A stretch of DNA of 24,967 bases from IMG/VR virus record IMGVR_UViG_3300020084_000094, positions 1 to 24,967 of that record; one strand, 5' to 3'. Both the position numbers and the translations under genes were made by a program. Position 1 is the stretch's first letter. Every line of letters starts with the position of its first letter. The notes under the pieces are model-generated. The model did not search any database and was not told the origin of the DNA. It was given only the letters and a program-made list of their open reading frames with translations. Shown piece by piece: positions 7,065 through 24,292 of this stretch. Source of the stretch: a virus.

Positions 7065-8417
7065 ATGGCAAAGACCGAACTGTTTGGGCGCTGGCTGCAG
7101 GGCTCCGTGGTCGTGGAGGACCAGGGCAAGAGCACTGGACAGCGCTTTTTCGTGCACGCCACAACGGGCCGCAATGCGGCGGGCTGGGGGCTCAACCCCG
7201 AAGCGCCGTTTGCCTCATTGGCCTACGCGGTGACGCGCTGCACGGCGGGCCGCCACGACATCATCTACCTGATGCCGGGGCATACGGAGACCATCGCCAC
7301 CACCATCACGCCCCTCGCGGGGACGCGGATCGTGGGCCTGGGCACGGGGCAGTTGATGCCGCAACTGACGCCGGCGGCCAACAACCTGGTAGCATTGACC
7401 ATCAGCGCGGCGAACGTGACCGTGGAGAATGTGTACATCAACGCCTCAACAGTTGCAGCGACGGCCACCGTGTTTGGCGTGACCGGACGGCATTTCCACC
7501 TCCGGAACTGCCACATGGATATGGGGGCCAACGACCGGATCGGCATCCGCATCGGCGCGCTGGGCTGTTACGCGGTCATCGAGGACAACGTGGTACAGGT
7601 GACCGCCAACGGACCGGACTCGTGGATCACGTTCGTGCACGCGAACGTGGATATGCCGCTGATCCGTCGCAACCATGTCATCGCGTCTGATACAACCAAC
7701 GAATTCGATGATGAAATCATCGACTTTGGCGGCCTGGCGGTGCGCAACCCGGTCATCGTGGACAACGTGTTCGACGGCGCGGACGTGGCCGTGACGAGCA
7801 TTGATGATGCCGCTGCGGTGGTCGGTGCATGCTTTAGCGCCAACAAATGCGCTGGCGCAGCGGTGAACAACGACATCACCCATGCGGGTTACGCCGATCT
7901 GCTCGACGGCGCGATATCCGCCAACAAGATCGCGGCCAACGCGCTGTCTCGCGCCAAGTTCGCGCTCGGCGCGGGTGAGATCACCGGCGATGGTGTGGTG
8001 GTCACGCGAGCGACGGCGGCCCTGCCGCAAACAGCGGCAGCGGCGCTCTTTACGGTTACAGGTCATTGTCTGCTCAAGCGCCTTGTGGGCGTAGTCACGG
8101 GGCAGGTGGGCGCGGTGGCTAACGCGACCAAATTGCGGATGAACAGCACCGGCGCGGGGGCGACAACGGATCTGTGTGCGACCGTAGAGTTCAACGCGGC
8201 AGCGGTAGACAGCCAGTTCACCATCACCGGGACGTTTGCCAACGCGATGATCAAAACGGTCAACCTGCCCATCGCCACGGCAGTGGACCTCAACGTGATG
8301 TTGGTGCCGGGCACGGTTGACCTCGACTGCGCTGGTTCGGACGGCGGTGATGGGCGCGTGCGCTGGTCCCTGGTCTATCAGCCTCTGGAATCAGGCGCGC
8401 AGATCGTGGCCGCCTAA
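7065..8417 (+). CDS. Parallel beta-helix protein, presumed head-surface protein, 450 aa
   Basis: Residues about 35-270 read as a right-handed parallel beta-helix. An opening GWGLNPEAPFASLAYAV segment is followed by DIIYLMPGHTETI, then repeated short strands with Asn/Gly turns (VTVENVYINAS, FHLRNCHMDMG, AVIEDNVVQVT, LIRRNHVIAS, PVIVDNVFDG). The last 150 residues look like a separate beta-sandwich (from about residue 320). The fold is typical of pectate-lyase-like proteins and tailspikes, but I see no clear catalytic residues, and the position is between capsid and connector genes rather than with the tail. I recognise the opening as a common type in environmental phages. A head fibre or decoration role is inferred; a glycan-binding role is possible. 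The ribosome site is AAGGGAG at 7054-7060. Confidence 0.6.
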   Translation: MAKTELFGRWLQGSVVVEDQGKSTGQRFFVHATTGRNAAGWGLNPEAPFASLAYAVTRCTAGRHDIIYLMPGHTETIATTITPLAGTRIVGLGTGQLMPQLTPAANNLVALTISAANVTVENVYINASTVAATATVFGVTGRHFHLRNCHMDMGANDRIGIRIGALGCYAVIEDNVVQVTANGPDSWITFVHANVDMPLIRRNHVIASDTTNEFDDEIIDFGGLAVRNPVIVDNVFDGADVAVTSIDDAAAVVGACFSANKCAGAAVNNDITHAGYADLLDGAISANKIAANALSRAKFALGAGEITGDGVVVTRATAALPQTAAAALFTVTGHCLLKRLVGVVTGQVGAVANATKLRMNSTGAGATTDLCATVEFNAAAVDSQFTITGTFANAMIKTVNLPIATAVDLNVMLVPGTVDLDCAGSDGGDGRVRWSLVYQPLESGAQIVAA

Positions 8418-12455: not shown

Positions 12456-15400
12456 TGGCCAGTAGCGCTGAGCTCGCGCTGATTATGAGCCTCGTGGATG
12501 AGGTGACGAGCACCGCTGAGAAAGTTAAAGGCTCGCTGAAGGACGTTGGCACTGAGGCGCAAGGACTCCAGGGCACATTAAACGGGGCATTCCAGGGACT
12601 CGCCAAAATCGGCGGAACGGCGATCATTGGCGGAGTGGGCGCGGCGGCAGCAGCGGTTACGGGGCTGGGCGCCGCAGCGCTGGCCGCGGGCATGGACTTT
12701 GATGCCGCCTTCGACACGATTGTCCAAAAGACGGGGGCTACCGGCGCAGAGCTGGAGCAGATGAAGGCCGACGCCACGGCGGTGTTCAAATCGCTGCCGG
12801 TGGACATTGGCGCCACGGCGGATGTCATTGCCACGCTGAATCAGCGCCTCGGCGTAACGGGCGAATCGGCGCAGGGTCTCGCTTCGCAGTTGCTCATGCT
12901 CGGCACGGGCGATGCCGTAGCGAGCGCCGAGCTCTATACGCGCGTGATGGGCGACTGGGGCATAGCCACAGAAGACGCCTCAACGACCCTCGATACCCTC
13001 TTTACGGCTTCGCAACTCACCGGCATTGGCGTAGATGATCTCGCGGGCAAGCTCGTCCAATTTGGCGCGCCATTGCGATTGATGGGCTTTGACCTGGAAC
13101 AGTCGGCGGCCCTGTTCGCCAAGTGGGAACAAGAGGGCGTCAACGCCGAGCTGGTGATGGGCTCGCTGCGCATCGCGGCCGGTAACTTTGCCAAGGAAAA
13201 CATTCCGCTCCAAGAAGGTCTCCAGCAGACCATCGCGCAGATTCAGGGGATGGATGACGCCAGCGCCGCGTTGGCGCTGGGCATGGAGGTGTTTGGCGCG
13301 CGCGCGGGGCCTGATATGACCGCCGCTATTCGGGAGGGGCGGTTCAGTATCGAAGAGCTCACCGCGGCAATGCAGGACAGCGAGGGGGCCATCCTGAACA
13401 CCGCCCAGGCGACCATGGACTTTCCCGAAAAGCTCCAAGTGATGAAGAACATGGCGCAGACGGCGCTGGCGCCGATTGGCCTCTCCATCATGGACATCGT
13501 GGGCAAGCTGCTGGAATCCCTGATGCCCGCATTCGAGCGCCTGACGGGCTGGCTGGAGGGGACGCTGGCCCCGGCGGTAGACGCGGCCATGCCGCACATC
13601 GAGACGCTCATCACCGCCTTTGGCGCGCTGCTCAGCGGGGACACAGAGGCCTTCTGGGCGGGGATCACCGAGGGCCTACTGGGCCTCGGCGAGGCGTTCG
13701 GGGTGAGCCGCGAGCAACTCCAGCCGTTTCTGGAGGGGCTACAGTCCACCGCGACGGCCATTGCCACCTTCGTCAGCGAGCATTCGGAAGCGCTCAAGAC
13801 GGCGCTCATCGCCATCGGCGCGGTGTTGGCGGCGGCGGCCATCGCCGGGGCGATAGTGGGTATTGGAGCAGCCATCGCAGCATTGGCGAACCCGGTCACC
13901 GCGATCATCCTGGCGGTGGGCCTACTGGCCACAGCGTGGGCCGAGAACTGGGGCGGCATCCAGGAAAAGACGCAGGCCGTCATTGATTTTATCATGGGCA
14001 TCATCGGTCCGGCGGTGGAGTTCATCCAGGGGCTTTGGGCGGAGCATGGTGAGGCGATCAAGACCACGGCCAGCGGCGCATGGGAGGCGATCAAGACGGG
14101 CTCTAGCGCGGCATGGGAATTCCTGAAGACCAACACCTCCGCGGGTTGGGAGGCGGTCAAGGGGGCCTACGCGACAAGCTCGGAGTTCATCAAAACGCAG
14201 GTCAACACGGCGCTGGAGGCCATCCGCGCATTCTGGGCGGAGCATGGCGAGACGATCAAGGGCATCATCCAGGGGTTCCTGGACGTGATCCGTGGCGTGT
14301 TTGACACGCAACTCAATGCCATCCGCGGCGTGTTCGAGGCATTCAAGCTGCTCCTCCAGGGAGACTGGGAGGGGGCGGGCAAGAAGCTGGTAGAGACGGC
14401 AAGTCAGTTCTTGACAGACATCGCCAATGTGTTCACCACGCTCAAGAGCACGGTGGTCAACGCGGCCAAAGCGATCTTTAGCGATGCGGTAGATGCGGTC
14501 AAAAAAGCCATCACGGACAAGATTGAGGAGATCAAACAGGCGGGCAAGGACCTCATCGCCGGGTTTATCGAGGGCATCAAGAGCGCGCCAGGGGCGATAG
14601 CCGATGCGGCCAAGGGGGCGGCAAGCGGCGCGGTCAACGCGGTGAAGGGCTTCCTGGGCGTGGGCTCGCCTTCCAAGGTGATGATTGATATAGGCAAAGA
14701 CACGATGACTGGCCTGGCCATGGGCATCGATCAAGGACAGGCGAAAGTATTAGAGAAGATCGGCGAGTTCCTGTCAGGTCTCTCCGACATGTTCGGCGTG
14801 CTCACGGGCCAGGATATGGGCGGGCTCGACGCTGGCAGTTTGCGGGCGCGTGTGGACGCGCTAGCTGAGGTCCTGGTCTATGCTATCAAGCGTTTCGCGG
14901 ACATACAGCGGCTCTATGGCTACAAGGAAATCAAAGAGCTGGACAAGACTACCACGCGATTCGGGCGAATGCTGGAGGTCATCGCCAAGGACTTGAGCAA
15001 AATCAAGGGGTTGGAGGACCCCACCGCGATCCCCCGCTTTTTCAACGAACTAGAACAGATGATCCATCACGCGCTGGCCCTGGCGCGGCGCATCGGCGGG
15101 AAATACGGCAAGGATCTGCTGGAGGAGATGGGGAAGATCTCTGAGCTGATCCTGAAGGTATTGAGCCTCACAGGTTTTGACCCCGAAAGCGTCAAAATGG
15201 CTGAGAAGGGCCTGCCCGACCTGGTGAAGTGGGGCGAGCAACTATATGCTATCATCATCAGGGCTACCGAGATTCTGGCCGCTGTACGCAAGGCGGTTTC
15301 GGATAGCCTTCTAGCCGAATACGCGGGCGTCACAGAGAATGTCACCAAGATTCTTTCCCTGACACAGGGAGCCAACATTGAAAACATGCTGGCCATCGCC

Positions 15401-17359
15401 GGGGAAAAGTTCCCCGACCTGGAGCTCTGGGGCCAGCGGCTCTATGCCATGATTGTGCGCGGCGTTGAGGTGCTGCAGGCAATACGGGCCTACATCGCGG
15501 ATGATCTTCTGAAGGAGATCGTAGGAATCAGTGAGCATCTTTCGAAAATAGCGCAACTCTTCTCGGTGGGTGGCATCGAGCAGATACGGACCCTCACGAA
15601 AGAGGAGTTCCCCGACCTCACAGCGTGGGCCAACAAGCTCTATCGGATGTTTGCGATGGGGATCGAGGTTTTCAAGGCGGTGCGCGCATACATCGAAGAC
15701 GAGGCGCTCGCGGCCGCAACGGGGATCAGCGAACACCTCAGCAAAGTAGCGCAGATTTTCTCGGTTGGCGGTCTGGCAGCCATGAGGGAACTGGCGGATG
15801 CCGAGATGCCAGATCTGTTCCAGTGGGGACAAAACCTCTTCAACATGATCGAATGGGGCATCGCGGTTTTCAAGTCCGTACGGCAACAGATCGAGGATAA
15901 AGCGCTCGCGGAAGCTACGGGGATCAGCGAATCGCTGGGGAAAGTGACGCAGCTATTTTCTGTGGGCGGCCTGGCTGCTATGCGCGAACTCGTTACTCTG
16001 GAATTCCCCAACCTGGATGCCTGGGCTGGGCGGCTGTTTCACATGATCGTGGCTGGGATCAATGTGCTATTGGCCCTGCGCGCGCAGATCAACGATAAAA
16101 TGCTCAAAATCGTGGCCGGGGTCGCGGAGGATATTCAGGTCATCGCGCAGCTCTTTGAGATGGGCGGCTTGGCGGCGATGGAAAAGCTGACCACAGCTAA
16201 ATGGCCTGATTTGGGGGTATGGGGGCAACGACTCTATGCGATGATTACAGCAGCCATCGATGTGCTCAAAAGCGTGCGCGACGCCATAGGGGCCAAACTG
16301 CTAGCCGAGCTGGCGGGCATCGCGGAAGCGTTGGGCAAAGCCTGGGCCATCGTGGAGCTGCGCACGGACATTGGCGTGACGCCAGCCAAGTTCTTCGAAC
16401 GTCTCATATCGCATCTGGACGCCATCGTGGACGCCGTGCCCCTTGTGCGCGATGCTTTGCAGCGCGTGCGAGCCGCGGGCACAACGTTGGAGACTTTGGC
16501 TGCAGATGCCGAACTCTCTGAGAAGCTCAAGAGCTTTTTCAGCATCCTGGACCTGAACAAGGTCTTTCAGGAGGTGCAGGTCATCCGGTCGCTGAGCGCG
16601 GGCGAGCGGCGCACGGCGCTCTCGAATGTGCTGACCAACCTGGGGATCATGCTGGAAGCGGCTGCGCCCATTCTGCGGGCCGCTCTGGAAAAGTTCCGCG
16701 AGCAGTGGGGCTCCTTGGAGGCGCTGGCTGAGGACGTGGACCTCTCCGAGTCGGTGCAAAAGCTGTTCAGCATCCTGGACGTGAGCAAGGTGATGGAGGA
16801 GATGCGCATCGCCAAGCCGCTGGCCAAAGGCGAGAAGCGGTTGCCGTTCGTGGAGGTGCTCACGAATTTCATCGGACAGATGAAAGAAGCGGCGCCGATC
16901 ATCCGCGATGGACTGCAAGAGATCAACGAGATCTTTGAGGAGCAGGCGGAAAACATGTCCGCTATCGCGGATCGGGTGCGCGACGTGTTCGTTTCGCTGG
17001 CCAGCGCGGTGCAGGCGGCCAGCGAGATGACCGTTTCGCGCTGGAACCTGAACAATGTGCTGCGGATGATCCGCGAGATCGCCATCGCCTCGCGCGCGGT
17101 GAGCGAGATACCTGTCCCCGAGTTCGGCGCGCCGGTTACGCCGGTGGGCTCCGAAGCGGGCATGGATGGCGACCGCCGCGGGATCGACCCCGACGCCATC
17201 AAGGCGGCCATCATCGAGGGCATCCAGGGGTCGGCCATCGCCTTTGACCTGAGCCTGGTGCAAGACCCCTCGCAGCGCGCCGAGTTCTCCTTCCGCCTTG
17301 GGCGGCTGGAGCGCATGTTCGCCGAGTTCGTCACCAAGTGGGAGGCGGCAGGTGCCTGA
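12455..17359 (+). CDS. Tape measure protein with two families of helical repeats, 1634 aa
   Basis: Determines tail length; at roughly 0.15 nm per residue it suggests a tail near 245 nm if all residues count. Residues 1-320 match the TP901-type tape measure core (DFDAAFDTIVQKTGATGAEL, then ALYTRVMGDWG-like and LVQFGAPLRLMGFDLEQSAALFAKWEQEGVN segments). Residues about 448-495 hold a long Ala/Ile/Gly hydrophobic stretch that could cross the host membrane. Residues about 510-700 are Trp-containing helical repeats with coiled coil. Residues 888-1281 hold six 66-residue repeats marked by W-G-x-x-L-Y/F-x-M-I. Residues 1317-1530 hold about three 76-residue repeats with FSILD. Its ATG overlaps the chaperone-fusion stop. 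No peptidase or lysozyme domain was recognised. Confidence 0.92.
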   Translation: MASSAELALIMSLVDEVTSTAEKVKGSLKDVGTEAQGLQGTLNGAFQGLAKIGGTAIIGGVGAAAAAVTGLGAAALAAGMDFDAAFDTIVQKTGATGAELEQMKADATAVFKSLPVDIGATADVIATLNQRLGVTGESAQGLASQLLMLGTGDAVASAELYTRVMGDWGIATEDASTTLDTLFTASQLTGIGVDDLAGKLVQFGAPLRLMGFDLEQSAALFAKWEQEGVNAELVMGSLRIAAGNFAKENIPLQEGLQQTIAQIQGMDDASAALALGMEVFGARAGPDMTAAIREGRFSIEELTAAMQDSEGAILNTAQATMDFPEKLQVMKNMAQTALAPIGLSIMDIVGKLLESLMPAFERLTGWLEGTLAPAVDAAMPHIETLITAFGALLSGDTEAFWAGITEGLLGLGEAFGVSREQLQPFLEGLQSTATAIATFVSEHSEALKTALIAIGAVLAAAAIAGAIVGIGAAIAALANPVTAIILAVGLLATAWAENWGGIQEKTQAVIDFIMGIIGPAVEFIQGLWAEHGEAIKTTASGAWEAIKTGSSAAWEFLKTNTSAGWEAVKGAYATSSEFIKTQVNTALEAIRAFWAEHGETIKGIIQGFLDVIRGVFDTQLNAIRGVFEAFKLLLQGDWEGAGKKLVETASQFLTDIANVFTTLKSTVVNAAKAIFSDAVDAVKKAITDKIEEIKQAGKDLIAGFIEGIKSAPGAIADAAKGAASGAVNAVKGFLGVGSPSKVMIDIGKDTMTGLAMGIDQGQAKVLEKIGEFLSGLSDMFGVLTGQDMGGLDAGSLRARVDALAEVLVYAIKRFADIQRLYGYKEIKELDKTTTRFGRMLEVIAKDLSKIKGLEDPTAIPRFFNELEQMIHHALALARRIGGKYGKDLLEEMGKISELILKVLSLTGFDPESVKMAEKGLPDLVKWGEQLYAIIIRATEILAAVRKAVSDSLLAEYAGVTENVTKILSLTQGANIENMLAIAGEKFPDLELWGQRLYAMIVRGVEVLQAIRAYIADDLLKEIVGISEHLSKIAQLFSVGGIEQIRTLTKEEFPDLTAWANKLYRMFAMGIEVFKAVRAYIEDEALAAATGISEHLSKVAQIFSVGGLAAMRELADAEMPDLFQWGQNLFNMIEWGIAVFKSVRQQIEDKALAEATGISESLGKVTQLFSVGGLAAMRELVTLEFPNLDAWAGRLFHMIVAGINVLLALRAQINDKMLKIVAGVAEDIQVIAQLFEMGGLAAMEKLTTAKWPDLGVWGQRLYAMITAAIDVLKSVRDAIGAKLLAELAGIAEALGKAWAIVELRTDIGVTPAKFFERLISHLDAIVDAVPLVRDALQRVRAAGTTLETLAADAELSEKLKSFFSILDLNKVFQEVQVIRSLSAGERRTALSNVLTNLGIMLEAAAPILRAALEKFREQWGSLEALAEDVDLSESVQKLFSILDVSKVMEEMRIAKPLAKGEKRLPFVEVLTNFIGQMKEAAPIIRDGLQEINEIFEEQAENMSAIADRVRDVFVSLASAVQAASEMTVSRWNLNNVLRMIREIAIASRAVSEIPVPEFGAPVTPVGSEAGMDGDRRGIDPDAIKAAIIEGIQGSAIAFDLSLVQDPSQRAEFSFRLGRLERMFAEFVTKWEAAGA
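15116..16297 (+). repeat. Six 66-residue (198-base) repeats in tape measure gene
   Basis: The Trp codons that mark each unit begin at 15230, 15428, 15626, 15824, 16022 and 16220, spaced by exactly 198 bases each time. The typical unit is an L-L-x-E helix with G-I-S-E-x-L-x-K, then L-F-S-V-G-G, F-P-D-L-x-x-W, L-Y-x-M-I and V-L-x-x-V-R-x-x-I. Units have diverged at the DNA level, so the repeat is old. A weaker seventh copy begins at 16298. Confidence 0.9.
16403..17040 (+). repeat. About three 76-residue repeats in tape measure gene
   Basis: Copies start near 16403, 16631 and 16859, a spacing of 228 bases. Shared features are an A-x-P-I/L-x-R-x-A/G-L helix and, in the first two copies, L-A-x-D-x-x-L-S-E followed by FSILD (codons at 16541 and 16769, 228 bases apart). 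The third copy is partial and diverges after its first helix. Confidence 0.75.
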
Positions 17360-18143
17360 GCGCATCGTCTACAACGGTACGCCCTTATGGACGGCGGGCG
17401 CCTCGCCCAACGTGGCCTTCAAGCGCGAGGTGGACCTCACCGGGCGCACACACGTCATCGAGGAGCTGGGCGACACCTCCACCAACATCTACCGCGGCTC
17501 CAAGCGCAACACGCGCTCCTACGAGATCACCTGCGACCTGATCGCGGGCGGCGCATTCACATTGGCGCAACTGATCGCCTGGTGGGAGGAGACGCACAGC
17601 GCCGACGGCGGCCTGCGCGTGCTGTTGCGCGAGACGGGGACGGGCGTGTTCTACCTGGACTGCGTGCCCGAGGCGCCCAAGTGGGGCTCGGACAATGGGC
17701 CCGTGTTGATCGAGGTGGTGCAGACCTACACGGCGCCGATGCCGCTGTGGTATGGGGCCGAGACAAGCGCGAACGGCAATTTCAACGGGGGCGCGCCGGT
17801 GACCATTGTCTGCGCCAATGCGGGAGACGTGCCCAGTTGGGTGCGGCTCGTGCTGGAAGACGCGGTTGAGGACCCGCTCATTGAGGGGGCGGACTGGGAG
17901 ATCGAGTTCGCGCTCACCATGGGCGCAGGCGACGAGCTGGCGGTGAACTGCCAAACCCCGGCCAGCGCCTGGTACACCCCGGCGGGCGGGGCGGCCACGC
18001 GGGCCTACGGCTACCGCACAGAAGCGACATCGTTCCGCAAGGCCAAGCTGCAACCCGGGAACAACAATGTGGTCATCAGCGCGACGGCAGGCAATGGGCT
18101 CTGCACCGTCTACTGGAAACCGCTCTACGAGGCGCTGACCTAA
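17352..18143 (+). CDS. Distal tail protein (Dit)-like, 263 aa
   Basis: Likely hexameric hub at the tail end to which the tip/fibre protein binds. The start is taken as GTG 17352, six bases after GGAGG (17341-17345) and overlapping the tape measure stop; the in-frame ATG upstream at 17298 lies deeper in that gene without a ribosome site. The N-terminal half has the Dit belt pattern (REVDLTGRTHVIEELGD, then GSKRNTRSYEITCDLIAGG) and ends with VEVVQTYTAPMPLWYG, similar to the strand-PxW signature that closes the belt domain. The C-terminal half (from about residue 150) is a beta-sandwich. Its place between tape measure and tip genes is canonical. Its stop overlaps the next ATG (TAATG). Confidence 0.75.
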   Translation: MPERIVYNGTPLWTAGASPNVAFKREVDLTGRTHVIEELGDTSTNIYRGSKRNTRSYEITCDLIAGGAFTLAQLIAWWEETHSADGGLRVLLRETGTGVFYLDCVPEAPKWGSDNGPVLIEVVQTYTAPMPLWYGAETSANGNFNGGAPVTIVCANAGDVPSWVRLVLEDAVEDPLIEGADWEIEFALTMGAGDELAVNCQTPASAWYTPAGGAATRAYGYRTEATSFRKAKLQPGNNNVVISATAGNGLCTVYWKPLYEALT

Positions 18144-21100
18144 TGCCATACACGAGCACCGGCGTCTGGCGGCCACACCGCTGGGATGATTGGGAAATCG
18201 AGCTCATTGACGGCAATCTCGACACCGTGGGCGTGGTGGACGAGGCCGTGGGGCTGCGCGCGGTCTGGGGGCAATACGGGTACGGCGACGGCTCGCTGGC
18301 GCTGCACATCAAGAGCGACCTGGCGGCGCTGCTTCTCGCAGACGGCATGTTTTACTTTCGCTTGATGCGCGACGGCCAACAGCTCCGCGACTTGATGATC
18401 GCCAAGGACGACCGCGGCTACACGGTCTCCAACCAATACGTGGACGAGTATATCGAGATCAGCCTGTCACCGCTGGATGCCGTGCTGCGCGACAAGATCT
18501 GCATCGACGCCGTAAACCCCAATCAGAATTTCCAGAGCCCCGACTGGCCGCTGGACGACGCCATGAAGTGGATCGTGGACCACACCTGCGGCCCGAGCGC
18601 CATCAACGGGCCGGGGGGCTCCAACCGCGTGCTGCCCGGGCTGACCATCGCGGCGAACGTAAGCGCGCACCCGCTCGATGACGAGGTGGATGACGCGCAC
18701 AAGATGGACCTGTTCCAGTTCCTGCAAAAGTTCGGCCCCACCTGGGACGTGGACTGGCGCGTGCGCATGGAGCGTACCCTCGGCGTGGCCAACCAGATGG
18801 TGTTCGAGACGTTCTACCCTCCGCGCGGCGCCGACAAGACAGTGGGCAACGGCAGCCCGTTCATCCTGCTGAACGACGCCTCGGGGGAGATACGCCAGGC
18901 GCGGCGCTACCGCCCGGCCACCGGGTTCGTGAACGCCGTCATCGCCAAGGACTATTCCAGCGAGGTCACGGACGCGGCGAGCGTGGCGCTCTACGGGCGG
19001 CGCGAGCTGATCGCGGACACGACGGCGACGAACCGCCTGCGGGCCATCCTGGCGGAGCGGGCGCAGCGCCTGGGCTATGACTTTACGTTCACCGAGAGCG
19101 AGATGGTGACCGTGGGCCAGGGCACAGCGGCAGACGGCGAGTTCGGTTTGGGCGACGAGATCACCATCGCCGTAGAACACCTCGACCTGCCCAGCGTAGA
19201 TGAATACGTCAACCAGGTTAAGTTCCAGCTCACGAAAGAGGGAGAGGAGGAGGTCAGCCTGGTCTTTGGCCGCCCGGAGAAGAGTCTGGGCGACAAAGTG
19301 GGCGAGGGGGGCGGCGGAGGCGGCGGCAGAGGCGGCGGAGCCGTGCCGCTCTGGGACCCGATCCGCGGGCTGCGTGACGCCGCGAACCTGTTCGTGCCCT
19401 TCTCGGGCGAGGACGACTATCAGAGCGTCAAGCTGGCCAACGGCGGCGGGTTGACCATTGTGGGCAACGTGCCCACGAACACGATCACCCTGACGGTGAG
19501 CAGCGGCGACCCGGCGGCGCACGACATCATCGGCGCCAAGCACTATGTGGCGGGCGTAGCAAACAAGCTCGTGGGCCTGACGGGCGTAGACACGCTGGGG
19601 CTGCTCTCCATCGCGGCGGGGACAGGGATCAGCGTCAGCGGCGTGACGGTCAGCCTGGCGAACACTGTGGTAACGCCGGGCAGCTATGGCGGCGCGCAGC
19701 ATGTTGGCTCGTTCACCGTGGACCAGCAGGGGCGGCTGACCGCGGCGAGCAACGTGGCCATCAGCGGCGTGACGCCTTCGGCGCACGATGTGGTAGGCGC
19801 GCTGCATACCATCGCCGCGGCGCAATACCAGCTCGTGGGGGCCACGGGCGCGAACACGCTGGGGCTGCTGACTCCGAGCGCGGATGTATCCGGCGGCGGC
19901 ACGGCCATTCTGCGAAGCGCCGCGGGCATTCTCACCCTGCTCCGCTGCGCGTTTACGGCAGACCAGTACATCCTGGGCGGCGGCAGCACGCTCTCCTTCT
20001 ACGCCGCGTCGGTGCATACCTGGGTCGTGGGCGGGGCTCAGGAACTTGCGCTTACGGCGGCGGCGCTGTATCCCATGACCACGGGCGGGCTCGACCTGGG
20101 CACGTCCAGCCTGCGTTGGGGCGTGGCCTATATCACGACGCTGAATGCCTCCGGCACGACGCACTATATCCGAGGAGTTACCTACGTCTGGCCAGCGGCC
20201 AACGCTGTCGGCTCATTGTGCAACGACGGATCGGGAAATTTGTCATGGGCGGCGCCGACGCCCTCGGCGCACGCGATTACCGGAGATCGGCATACTGTTA
20301 CCGGATCACAGTATCAACTCGTGGGCCTGACGGCGGCGAACACGCTGGGGCTGCTCACCCTTACCGCAGGAACGGGTATCAGTATCAGCGGCGTGACGGT
20401 CAACCTGGCGAACACTGCGGTAACGCCGGGCAGCTATGGCAACGCCACCAACGTCGGCTCGTTCACCGTGGACGCGCAAGGCCGGCTGACCGCGGCAGCG
20501 AACGTGGCCATCAGCGGCGTGACGCCTTCGGCGCACGACGTGGTGGGCGCGCTGCACACCATCGCCGCGGCGCAATACCAGCTCGTGGGGGCCACGGGCG
20601 CGAACACGCTGGGGCTGCTGACTCCGAGCGCGGACGTATCCGGCGGCGGCACGGCCATTCTGCGGAGCGCCGCGGGCATTCTCACTCTGCTCCGCTGCGC
20701 GTTTACGACAGACCAGTACATCCTGGGCGGCGGCAGCACGCTCTCCTTCTACGCCGCGTCGGTGCATACCTGGGTCGTGGGCGGGGCTCAGGAACTTACG
20801 CTTACGGCGGCGGCGCTGTATCCCACGACCACGGGCGGGCTCGACCTGGGCACGTCCAGCCTGCGTTGGGGCGTGGCCTATATCACGACGCTCAACGCCT
20901 CGGGCACGACGCACTATATCCGAGGAGTTACCTACGTCTGGCCAGCGGCAAACGCGAGCGGGGCGCTGTGCAATGATGGGGCGGGCAACCTCTCCTGGGC
21001 AGCCCCTGTGCCCGCATCACATAACTTGTTGAGCGCCGCCATACATGGGGATACGGCAGACGGAAATGTTGTGCGGGGTGATATCATCACTGGACAGGGA

Positions 21101-21454
21101 GCAACTCCTGCCTGGATGCGGCTGGCAAAAGGTAATGCGAACGATGTGCTGATTATGGGGGCTAATGAACCGCAATGGAGCAATAGCCTCACGATAACGA
21201 ATCTGACAGCCGGGGGCAAAAATATTGTCACGCACACGCATGGACTGACTTTTACGAATACGAATTCGGGTAACAATACTGACTTTAGCAATCCATCCAT
21301 TCGGGCGGCTCTTGCGTGGTTCTCGGGCCCATACGTTTATTGCAGTGACAGTTCTGACGGTAGCAATCCATATTGGACGAAGATGGAATTGATGGATGGC
21401 ACCCATACGCATTTGTACGCCAAAACCGACACCCCTACAGGGGGAATGAGCTAG
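18143..21454 (+). CDS. Tail-tip / fibre protein with duplicated repeat domain, 1103 aa
   Basis: Probably the tail-tip hub fused to a receptor-binding fibre. Residues 1-385 resemble siphovirus ReqiPepy6 Gp37-like tip proteins: an opening WEIELIDGNLDTVGVVDE, a strand GDGSLALHIKSD, then MKWIVDHTCGP and VNAVIAKDYSSEV, and a closing EYVNQVKFQLTKEG. A Gly-rich hinge at about 388-402 joins the fibre. Residues 457-956 are two 250-residue copies built from S-A-H-D-V-V-G-A-L-H and Q-L-V-G-x-T-G-A-N-T-L-G-L-L motifs, which are typical of fibre shafts. Residues 957-1103 form the tip, with HNLLSAAIHGDT, a DIITGQGATPAWMRLAKG module common in phage fibres, and His-rich THTH segments. The tip is more AT-rich than the shaft. 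No peptidase motif was seen. Confidence 0.8.
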   Translation: MPYTSTGVWRPHRWDDWEIELIDGNLDTVGVVDEAVGLRAVWGQYGYGDGSLALHIKSDLAALLLADGMFYFRLMRDGQQLRDLMIAKDDRGYTVSNQYVDEYIEISLSPLDAVLRDKICIDAVNPNQNFQSPDWPLDDAMKWIVDHTCGPSAINGPGGSNRVLPGLTIAANVSAHPLDDEVDDAHKMDLFQFLQKFGPTWDVDWRVRMERTLGVANQMVFETFYPPRGADKTVGNGSPFILLNDASGEIRQARRYRPATGFVNAVIAKDYSSEVTDAASVALYGRRELIADTTATNRLRAILAERAQRLGYDFTFTESEMVTVGQGTAADGEFGLGDEITIAVEHLDLPSVDEYVNQVKFQLTKEGEEEVSLVFGRPEKSLGDKVGEGGGGGGGRGGGAVPLWDPIRGLRDAANLFVPFSGEDDYQSVKLANGGGLTIVGNVPTNTITLTVSSGDPAAHDIIGAKHYVAGVANKLVGLTGVDTLGLLSIAAGTGISVSGVTVSLANTVVTPGSYGGAQHVGSFTVDQQGRLTAASNVAISGVTPSAHDVVGALHTIAAAQYQLVGATGANTLGLLTPSADVSGGGTAILRSAAGILTLLRCAFTADQYILGGGSTLSFYAASVHTWVVGGAQELALTAAALYPMTTGGLDLGTSSLRWGVAYITTLNASGTTHYIRGVTYVWPAANAVGSLCNDGSGNLSWAAPTPSAHAITGDRHTVTGSQYQLVGLTAANTLGLLTLTAGTGISISGVTVNLANTAVTPGSYGNATNVGSFTVDAQGRLTAAANVAISGVTPSAHDVVGALHTIAAAQYQLVGATGANTLGLLTPSADVSGGGTAILRSAAGILTLLRCAFTTDQYILGGGSTLSFYAASVHTWVVGGAQELTLTAAALYPTTTGGLDLGTSSLRWGVAYITTLNASGTTHYIRGVTYVWPAANASGALCNDGAGNLSWAAPVPASHNLLSAAIHGDTADGNVVRGDIITGQGATPAWMRLAKGNANDVLIMGANEPQWSNSLTITNLTAGGKNIVTHTHGLTFTNTNSGNNTDFSNPSIRAALAWFSGPYVYCSDSSDGSNPYWTKMELMDGTHTHLYAKTDTPTGGMS
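19511..21010 (+). repeat. Tandem 750-base duplication in fibre gene
   Basis: Copies at 19511-20260 and 20261-21010 are in frame (250 residues each). The middle and end of each unit (19771-20209 and 20521-20959) are almost identical at the DNA level, with scattered, mostly single-base changes, whereas the first 260 bases differ more. A related start at 21011 marks the tip module. Confidence 0.92.
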
Positions 21455-21462
21455 GGAGGAAT

Positions 21463-21897
21463 ATGCAAGTCGAAGCGGCGGCATTGACGGTAGCGATGCT
21501 CCACGACCTGACCTATACCAGCGGATCGGGGCCGTTCCTGGCGTTGCTGTATGAGACCCGTCAGGAGATCGAGCGCCAGACTGCGGAACCCATGAGCAAC
21601 CTAGGGGCCTACTGGCAAGACGGCGGCGGGATCATGCTCCAGGGGACTCGGCTAGACGAATACGCCAAGGCAACGTTGACAGTAACATTATCATCGCCTC
21701 AGCTTCAGGGGCTCTTGCAAGCCTACTACGGTGATGCGCAGACTCCCGCCAAAGTGTGGCCACAACAGCTAGGGGACTATCTGCTAGGGATCGTGCGCGA
21801 GCTAGGGCCTCAGATACAGGCATGGGCAGAGGAAGCGCAGGCGGTGGAGAGCTGGGAGCGCCTGCCCGCGAGCGTGCGAGAAAAGGTGAAAGCATGA
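21463..21897 (+). CDS. Small helical protein of unknown function, 144 aa
   Basis: Gene behind the fibre. The start is ATG 21463, three bases behind GGAGG (21455-21459), and the stop overlaps the next start (ATGA at 21894-21897). An in-frame ATG at 21373 would overlap the fibre end and lacks a ribosome site. The protein begins with a helix (EAAALTVAMLHDL), has a middle region with YWQDGGGIMLQGTRL, and ends in a Glu/Ala/Trp-rich amphipathic helix (GPQIQAWAEEAQAVESWERLP). No signal peptide, membrane segment or catalytic motif is visible. Position suggests a fibre-assembly chaperone or baseplate accessory, but that is inference only. Confidence 0.6.
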   Translation: MQVEAAALTVAMLHDLTYTSGSGPFLALLYETRQEIERQTAEPMSNLGAYWQDGGGIMLQGTRLDEYAKATLTVTLSSPQLQGLLQAYYGDAQTPAKVWPQQLGDYLLGIVRELGPQIQAWAEEAQAVESWERLPASVREKVKA

Positions 21898-23504
21898 GAC
21901 ACCTGCTGGCCGTGGCGACCGTGACGCTGCTGCTGACGCCGTTCCTGGCAGCATTGCCAACCCAGGCCGCGACGGGGACACCGCTCTTTGGAATGCTCGA
22001 CCGTGAGACAGCGACCTCTGCCGCTGCCGTCTGGTTCACCGCTGAGGAGATGAACCCCTCAGCAGGCGTCTACCGCTGGGCCGTGGTGGAAGCCAAGCTG
22101 TCGCGGTTCACCAAGCCGGTGCATCTGTGGGGGTTCGCTGTGGTGAGCCTGGGGCCAGCAGGTTCGGTGGGCTACCGTGTGACGTATCCGCGATGGTGGG
22201 GAGCGCCCCACGAGGTGACGGTGGGGGGACAGAAGGGCTATTTCCCGCCCTATGACTCGGCAACCTGGCGATCCCGCTATGCTGACCTCGTGCGCGCGCT
22301 GGGGGAACGCTATGACGGCGACCCGCGCCTCGTGCATATCGCTGTCGGCTTCGGGCTGGACAATGAGAACAGCATCGCCAAGGGAGCCTGGCGCGAGGCC
22401 ACCAAGTTCCTAGAGTACAGGCATGGACAGTGGGTATACGAAGGAATCGAGGTCTGGGCAGCGAGCTTTACCAAGACATCGCTGTTCCTGAACAACTCCG
22501 TGGGCGGCGAGGCCCGCCGCGCCTGGGGCAGTCGCGCCGTAGAGCGCGGCATGGGGATCAAGCTCGTGTTGGGCACGGACTTGCCGGACATGGTGGCCTG
22601 GGTGACAACCGCCGATCCGGCCTCGATCACCGGGGCGCTTTCGATCCTGGAACTATATCCTGGAACGCCGCTGATGGTGGAAAGTCAGCATGGAATGGGC
22701 GGATCCCGTCATACCCTCTGGCTCTGGGCGCTGGCGCAGCGTCTTGGCGCGGTGGCGCTCTCGCTGCACCCTGAGCATATCACGGCGCTGGCAAGCCTCG
22801 ACTTACCACAGGGGCAGTGGGTCATGTTCCGTGACCGCGAGTATGCGCCGACGTGTTGGAGCGGCAAATGCGTAAGCGGCTACCCTGGGGACTTTGCTCG
22901 CGGGATACGCATAGTAGCGACCGGAACGCGCCTATGGGCAGCGAACTTTCCGGCCGGCGGGGATCATCCTATCATCTACCAGGCAAGAGAGGGGACTTTC
23001 GCACTGGAGATTACACCGCCGGCGGACAATGCCGCTGTGCGGATCACGTACCTGGATCATGGCTTCGCGCCGTTCACGGTGAATGGCCAGATGATACAGA
23101 GGAGGAACACAGGACAATGGCAGACAGCGATTATCAACCTGGCGAGGGCGACGACGCTGACGATCGGGCCGGACGTGCACCTGCACAGGGTGGAGGTGTG
23201 GCCTGGTGCGAGTCCGACAGCTACAGCTATTCCGCCAACCATGACGGCTACCAGTACCGCTTCCGCTACATCTACAAGGACGGCTACATGTACCGCTACG
23301 CTGTCCCCATCCGCAACGCCTACGTGCAGATCTACAGCCACTATGACACCTCAACCGTCGACATCTACCGCCACGAGGACTGCACCGGCTACAACAGCTA
23401 CGGTTATCCCTACGAAGACCGCAGCTCCCGAACCAACGTGCTGGAGCTGCGTGCAGCGGGGGGATGAGATGACGTGCCTGCACATGGAGTGTGAGCGATG
23501 GTGA
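21894..23504 (+). CDS. Exported glycoside-hydrolase-like protein with Thr/Ser/Pro stalk, 536 aa
   Basis: Residues 1-25 are a clear signal peptide (MRH, a hydrophobic core LLAVATVTLLLTPFLAAL, cleavage after TQA), unexpected in a tail gene block. Residues 30-350 look like a TIM-barrel glycosidase. RYADLVRALGERYDGDP (128-144) leads to VGFGLDNEN (Glu158, candidate acid/base), and LMVESQHG (260-267, Glu263) is a candidate nucleophile. Residues about 365-437 resemble a carbohydrate-binding beta-sandwich (VRITYLDHGFAPFTVNG; a closing HLHRVEVWP). Residues 438-515 are a stalk of Thr, Ala, Ser and Pro, like those of secreted Chloroflexota proteins. A Cys-rich end (CWSC, CLHMEC) follows. The start ATG overlaps the previous stop and the 3' end overlaps the next gene by 7 bases. 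The family is not certain. Confidence 0.65.
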   Translation: MRHLLAVATVTLLLTPFLAALPTQAATGTPLFGMLDRETATSAAAVWFTAEEMNPSAGVYRWAVVEAKLSRFTKPVHLWGFAVVSLGPAGSVGYRVTYPRWWGAPHEVTVGGQKGYFPPYDSATWRSRYADLVRALGERYDGDPRLVHIAVGFGLDNENSIAKGAWREATKFLEYRHGQWVYEGIEVWAASFTKTSLFLNNSVGGEARRAWGSRAVERGMGIKLVLGTDLPDMVAWVTTADPASITGALSILELYPGTPLMVESQHGMGGSRHTLWLWALAQRLGAVALSLHPEHITALASLDLPQGQWVMFRDREYAPTCWSGKCVSGYPGDFARGIRIVATGTRLWAANFPAGGDHPIIYQAREGTFALEITPPADNAAVRITYLDHGFAPFTVNGQMIQRRNTGQWQTAIINLARATTLTIGPDVHLHRVEVWPGASPTATAIPPTMTATSTASATSTRTATCTATLSPSATPTCRSTATMTPQPSTSTATRTAPATTATVIPTKTAAPEPTCWSCVQRGDEMTCLHMECERW

Positions 23505-24292
23505 CGATCATCCGGCCAGAGAGCCGCGTGCTGACTATCGGCAATCCCGGACTGCGCATTCTGAGCGGGCCGATGGGAGGTGGGCTGCTCAACAATCTCA
23601 TCGCGTACTGGCCCGGCAATGAGCCAAACGGGGATTTGCTAGATGCACATATAAACGGTCTGCACCTGACAGACACGAACACGGTTACAAGCGCTGCGGG
23701 CATAGTTTACCCTACGGCTCGTTTCTATCAGCAGGTGAATGGAGAATACCACAGGCGAGTGGATGAGCCATTGCTAAGCACGGGTGATGTTGATTTTACG
23801 CTCGCCGTGTGGTTGTATCGAACATTTCGGGCGTCAGTGGTAGACTGGGGAGTAATCGGCAAGTACACTTCGTCTGCCCGCGAATATGTAATATCATGGG
23901 AGGACGTGACAGAGCGAATGCAATTCAGTGTGTCACGTGATGGGGGTGTGGGAACAGTTACGGGGATTCAGGCAACTACGTTCGGTGTTGTGCCTCTCGA
24001 CACATGGATATTTGTAATAGCCTGGCATGATGCAGTATTGGACAGAATCTACATTCAGGTAAATAACGGCACCGCCGACTGGGCGTCACATGCTAACGGC
24101 GTGTTCGACGGCACTGCGCAGTTTGAGATTGGGCGGTTTTTCTCCATGGCAGAGACCACATGGAATGGTCGCATTGGCCCCTCGGCGTTCTGGAAGAGCG
24201 CGCCGGGTGGCAGTGGCGTTCTTACAGCCGCTCAGCGCACAGCTTTATGGAACGGCGGAGCAGGGCTGCCTTACACTGCATTTACGACGTAA
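23498..24292 (+). CDS. LamG/concanavalin A-like lectin domain protein, 264 aa
   Basis: Probable glycan-binding surface protein. Residues about 30-255 follow the LamG jelly-roll order. They open with LIAYWPGNEPNGDLLDAHINGLHLTDTNTV, then TGDVDFTLAVWLYRTF and GVIGKYTSSAREYVISWEDVTERMQFSV. LDTWIFVIAWHDAVLDRIYIQVNN comes next, with FEIGRFFSMAETTWNGRIGPSAFWKSA at the end and a TAAQRTALWNGGAGLPY tail that is very common in phage LamG proteins. The ATG follows GGAG at 23486-23489 and overlaps the previous gene. There is no signal peptide. Base use from about 23640 to 24200 is clearly more AT-rich than the rest of the window, which suggests recent acquisition. Confidence 0.82.
   Translation: MVTIIRPESRVLTIGNPGLRILSGPMGGGLLNNLIAYWPGNEPNGDLLDAHINGLHLTDTNTVTSAAGIVYPTARFYQQVNGEYHRRVDEPLLSTGDVDFTLAVWLYRTFRASVVDWGVIGKYTSSAREYVISWEDVTERMQFSVSRDGGVGTVTGIQATTFGVVPLDTWIFVIAWHDAVLDRIYIQVNNGTADWASHANGVFDGTAQFEIGRFFSMAETTWNGRIGPSAFWKSAPGGSGVLTAAQRTALWNGGAGLPYTAFTT

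Follow-up and report, generated by a model that had tools for sequence, protein, structure and literature searches.

Why does the tail block of a phage carry a gene whose product looks like an exported cell-surface enzyme? We addressed this question for the gene at 21894-23504 of IMG/VR record IMGVR_UViG_3300020084_000094, analyzed as the whole 24,967-base virus sequence (the window), perhaps itself only part of a phage genome. ORF calling and translation showed a real reading frame of 536 aa (Table 1). Its ATG overlaps the stop codon of the upstream 144-aa ORF as ATGA and is preceded by AAGG at a distance of 7 nt, and the downstream ORF begins 7 nt before the end of the gene's own stop codon. 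The overlaps on both sides bear out the translational coupling and tail-operon membership claimed in the original prediction, which was made by reading the sequence without database searches. We rejected an in-frame GTG start at 21756 because translation from it would traverse the upstream gene and leave the signal peptide internal to the product; the homologue described below starts at the position matching the ATG. The gene order in the record is terminase, portal, protease and capsid, then tape measure, Dit-like protein, tail-tip hub, small ORF, the gene under study and the LamG-like ORF. Actinobacterial phages have the terminase most similar to that of the window (~50% identity), and the capsid and portal matches come from mixed hosts; a Chloroflexota host is unsupported. 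Elsewhere in the window, an ORF shortly after the capsid gene (7065-8417) looks beta-helix-like by eye and has no PHROG match, and the related phage described below carries an ORF of similar look on its minus strand (L010:4046-5014). The tape-measure gene (14010-16245) contains several repeat pairs with a spacing of 198 nt (66 codons). In the hub gene, a 300-nt stretch within 19568-21067 recurs at a distance of 750 nt with 87% identity (19568-19867 and 20318-20617), suggesting an internal duplication.

Table 1. Features of the exported glycosidase-like protein and of the neighboring tail-tip genes (window positions; L002 and L005 are related phage contigs)
Feature	Positions	Strand	Evidence
Dit-like distal tail protein, shared module, start codon uncertain	17298..18143	+	phrog_106 minor tail protein, E 2.6e-6; 43-50% identity to L002 and L005
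Tail-tip hub, Sipho_Gp37 at N-terminus, shared module	18143..21454	+	Pfam PF14594, E 2.9e-11; 56% identity to L002 over N-terminal part
Small ORF, 144 aa, ATGA overlap; distant homologue after L002 hub	21463..21897	+	Shuffle test
Exported glycosidase-like protein CDS, 536 aa	21894..23504	+	ORF and translation; L002 homologue, 26% identity, E 2e-30
Predicted Sec signal peptide, residues 1-25, cleavage-type site TQA/A	21894..21968	+	Hydropathy and charge rules; lipobox signal in L002 homologue
Predicted glycosidase-like (beta/alpha) region, ~residues 26-355	21969..22958	+	L002 homology; low-confidence models and fold matches
Glu158 codon, candidate acid/base, just after predicted strand (GLDNE)	22365..22367	+	Kept in L002; strand model residues 121-127 = protein 146-152
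Glu263 codon, candidate nucleophile, end of predicted strand (MVES)	22680..22682	+	Kept in L002; strand model residues 235-238 = protein 260-263
Predicted C-terminal beta-sandwich, ~residues 358-436, CBM35-like	22965..23201	+	pLDDT ~70 in single-sequence model; CBM35 match 2w1w, E 3e-4
Thr/Ala/Pro/Ser stalk, residues 437-514 (78 residues)	23202..23435	+	Composition
Cys-rich end, residues 515-536: Cys516, 519, 528, 533	23436..23501	+	Sequence
Downstream ORF, LamG-like by eye, 7-nt overlap, no L002 match	23498..24292	+	Weak phrog_18503 match

The 536-aa protein begins with Arg2, a 12-residue stretch of mean hydropathy 2.4 and a cleavage-type site after Ala25, with no acidic residues. By the hydropathy and charge rules on which the export call is based, this N-terminus reads as the Sec-type signal peptide that had been proposed. 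No second membrane segment was found in the protein. The composition of the stalk (33% Thr, 21% Ala, 15% Pro, 12% Ser) and the four Cys within the final 21 residues likewise match the long Thr/Ser/Pro stalk and Cys-rich end of the original prediction. The window protein has no lipobox or known anchor; release into the medium and display at the surface are equally possible. Searches of Pfam, NCBIfam and PHROGs returned no family for it (no meaningful match in the case of NCBIfam).

We found one homologue, a 1148-aa protein in a 60-kb IMG/VR phage contig (L002) that was located by an IMG/VR scan using the tail-tip hub as the query. The shared region is 26% identical over 481 columns (E 2e-30; local shuffle Z-score 54), and 121 of the 401 aligned residues of the two proteins are identical. 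The homologue has two Thr/Pro-rich stalks and is predicted to be exported as well, because it carries a lipobox signal (ILCGC); it would be anchored at its N-terminus, and the window protein would carry its stalk at the C-terminus. In addition, a Peptidase_C11 (clostripain-type) domain covers residues 767-1121 of the homologue (E 2.1e-33, almost the full profile) and is absent from the window. A C11 match in 'Bacteriophage sp.' MT835489.1 (L015) was dropped as a phage example because its mutS- and miaB-like neighbors, found there with a rubrerythrin-like gene, make it look like a bacterial contig. Querying Pfam, PHROGs, NCBIfam, PDB, phages, plasmids, and IMG/VR and GTDB contigs with the protein, the homologue's matching domain, their alignment and the module genes gave no other homologue, the IMG/VR and GTDB scans being by short patterns that miss distant relatives.

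The signal peptide and stalk, joined by the lipobox, the Thr/Pro stalks and the same post-hub position in an independent homologue, uphold the claim of a host cell-surface design. They also weigh against the protein being a virion part, that is, a depolymerase of the tail fibre or baseplate in which the hydrophobic N-terminus does not act as a signal peptide. The location of the gene between the tail hub and the LamG-like ORF, in one operon, is what such a component would show. However, tail proteins assemble in the cytoplasm, which is at odds with a signal peptide here and a lipobox in the homologue; the protein has no tail PHROG match, and no other listed gene of the window has a comparable hydrophobic N-terminus. 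We consider a virion part improbable.

Predicted structures and the homologue together point to a glycosidase-like region. The AlphaFold models were poor overall (pLDDT 40-45): the single-sequence model gave no usable barrel and was set aside in that respect, and the two-sequence model reached a mean pLDDT of 44.9 with a pTM of 0.42. Foldseek matches at E < 0.001 were mostly glycosidase barrels (endoglycoceramidase, GH5, GH10, GH2, GH44 and GH158) with global TM-scores of ~0.3 or less, and the fold matches from a viral structure library included GH5 and DUF4832 proteins of phages along with various others. Low-confidence models may yield meaningless fold matches, and we take these as support, not proof. 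Profiles of GH42, GH5, GH35 and DUF4832, run at E 10, matched nothing in either phage genome. Both candidate catalytic residues, Glu158 and Glu263, are kept in the homologue, but so are 12 of the 20 Glu residues overall, which makes this conservation weak evidence alone. In the two-sequence model Glu158 comes directly after one predicted strand and Glu263, 105 residues further on, ends another one three strands later, a spacing resembling the 4/7 strand arrangement of clan GH-A, with the strand numbering itself unreliable. The models lend support to a putative clan GH-A-like fold of residues ~26-355. The originally proposed TIM-barrel-like catalytic region fits the majority of fold matches, with the barrel itself standing as a low-confidence model and the two Glu residues as candidates; the carbohydrate-binding-like sandwich was recovered in the single-sequence model. 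From these models we regard a glycosidase-like fold as probable, and glycosidase activity as somewhat less so.

A gene in this position might instead be cargo of no enzymatic role, its degenerate glycosidase-like fold acting as a surface adhesin or blocking protein. The lack of a recognizable family would suit such a product, as would a putative acid/base motif that differs between the window protein (DNE) and the homologue (DGE). Retention of both candidate catalytic Glu residues at 30% overall identity argues the other way, and we think this very improbable. A lysis helper, namely a signal-peptide-bearing enzyme that degrades the wall, could be imagined from the two ORFs that follow the homologue (L002:16974-17312 and L002:17314-17670), both of which look like small membrane proteins. 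Yet neither has a PHROG match, the remainder of the window downstream holds no comparable small membrane genes, the protein matches no lysozyme, amidase or wall-binding family, and stalk and lipobox fit surface display; this role is quite improbable. Also downstream of the homologue, L002:18001-18858 encodes an anti-restriction (ArdC-like) protein (phrog_7245). Elsewhere in this related phage, the product of L008:8197-8829 is a membrane protein that by eye looks like a queuosine-precursor transporter (phrog_4899, function unassigned).

The relationship of the two phages bears on what the enzyme might act upon. We compared the 21 window genes with four fetched pieces of the L002 phage (tblastn, E 1e-3), and matches were restricted to the end of the tape measure, the Dit, the hub and the gene at 21894-23504. 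The shared tail-tip genes (17298-21454 in the window, L002:9207-12184) are 43-56% identical. The small ORF at 21463-21897 has a weak but significant counterpart, with a local score of 53 against a shuffle mean of 28 (SD 5; none of 500 shuffles reached 53). The terminase and capsid of the window had no match in the pieces compared. In L002 the homologue follows the hub (56% identical) and two small ORFs, and in the window the gene follows the hub and one, so the order hub, small ORF(s), exported enzyme is common to both. Sharing of the tail tip without a terminase match is, by sequence comparison, module exchange between the two phages. Because the tail-tip genes and the gene at 21894-23504 are the ones that match, this gene appears to travel with the tail-tip module and not with the rest of the phage, a pattern based on two phages. 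Two further contigs located through Dit and hub relatives (L005/L013 and L006) end inside the hub and are uninformative on this gene.

An exported glycosidase could also clear exopolysaccharide or environmental polysaccharide generally, for spread or host nutrition and unrelated to the receptor. Hydrolases of this kind are documented in phages, including PghP (late, non-virion, burst-released) and LevP of Bacillus phage NIT1 (PMC6966330), and a viral GH5 endomannanase is active in vitro (PMC6786970). The position of the gene in a conserved tail-tip module, however, favors a link to adsorption, and the peptidase fused to the homologue is odd for carbohydrate nutrition. General matrix clearing is, in our view, somewhat unlikely.

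As the best explanation, to which we give a probability of roughly 0.4, we propose that the gene encodes a late, Sec-exported, stalked, glycosidase-like, non-virion enzyme that belongs to the host-recognition module and would trim glycans at the surface, freeing progeny and blocking re-adsorption. The enzyme would be made late together with the tail proteins and exported through the host Sec pathway, with the stalk and Cys-rich end holding it at or near the cell surface. There the glycosidase-like region would cut a surface glycan, which may be a receptor sugar, exopolysaccharide or the glycan of a glycoprotein. Released progeny would thus not be trapped on the surface or debris of their own host, and further adsorption would be reduced. 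The Dit, the hub, the small ORF and the exported gene would together make up the host-recognition module, an enzymatic counterpart of T5 pb5/Llp in which the hub is the putative receptor binder. We infer the late timing, the substrate, the C-terminal tethering and the biological role, the timing from the coupling of the gene to tail genes within the structural block. That the enzyme would trim the host surface with consequences for the same tail tip is suggested by combining the precedents of T5 Llp and NIT1 PghP/LevP, on which the proposed role rests in part. In favor of this explanation are the signal peptide and lipobox, the shared gene order, the kept Glu pair, the fold matches, the C11 domain of the homologue and these precedents; against it are the low model confidence, the low global TM-scores, the lack of a GH42, GH5, GH35 or DUF4832 match and the finding of one homologue. 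Of the roles originally suggested, remodeling of the host surface or a superinfection block may apply, and co-inheritance with the tail-tip module makes it more plausible. Display by lysogens finds no support, the gene being in the structural block and coupled to tail genes with no lysogeny gene seen in the window.

A stronger version of the proposed explanation, which we judge unlikely, is a receptor-destroying system: the module would encode, besides the tail tip, a stalked glycosidase exported by Sec (protease-fused in one lineage) and of a new family that strips the receptor glycan, as the catalytic equivalent of Llp blocking. If true, an exported enzyme would be the phage answer to self-trapping, comparable to the neuraminidase of influenza, and would be paired genetically with the matching tail tip. 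The substrate of the enzyme would then reveal what the neighboring tail tip binds, and so the receptor glycans of uncultured hosts, and a glycosidase-like family lacking a Pfam model would be added.

Among known systems, T5 Llp, the Cor-type proteins of T1/Rtp and TP-J34 Ltp are, like the window protein (by the signal-peptide rules), phage-encoded and exported to the envelope. In T5, llp adjoins the receptor-binding gene pb5 and encodes an exported exclusion lipoprotein (PMC9586334); the two together are described as forming a functional module, and a further presumed effect of Llp is less loss of phage on debris (PMC4728585). The window gene lies one small ORF after the hub, and its homologue two, with the hub as receptor binder being putative. 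Llp and Cor are small, non-enzymatic lipoproteins that block a protein receptor, whereas the window protein is 536 aa long, stalked, enzyme-like and without a lipobox; the homologue resembles Llp, Cor and Ltp in being a predicted envelope-anchored lipoprotein. The Ltp gene belongs to a lysogeny module (PMC3952083), in contrast to the structural block here. LevP (GH32) and PghP of NIT1 share with the window protein, in its case by prediction, the action of a phage enzyme on polymers of the host surface. Both are referred to as soluble enzymes, PghP being a late, non-virion product (PMC6966330). Signal peptides are absent from phage GH32 enzymes (PMC4595243), and the papers examined describe no stalk or tail-tip module for either; LevP is thought to be a beta-propeller, whereas the window protein is barrel-like in low-confidence models. 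The models of the window protein resemble clan GH-A (GH5, GH10, GH42) and DUF4832 proteins in predicted strand-helix order, in two candidate Glu three strands apart and in an accessory beta-sandwich, but no GH42, GH5, GH35 or DUF4832 sequence match was found and the fold here is putative. The link to the clostripain family is confined to the C11 domain of the homologue. Tail-spike depolymerases are likewise encoded among tail genes and glycan-directed (putatively so here), but the window protein has a signal peptide, a stalk and no tail-family match. In a limited literature search we found no exported, stalked, glycosidase-like enzyme tied to a tail-tip module. Phage enzymes that attack polymers of the host surface are nevertheless already known, as are exported exclusion proteins, and with NIT1 PghP/LevP and T5 Llp as precedents, the initial suggestion of a wholly new system is too strong.
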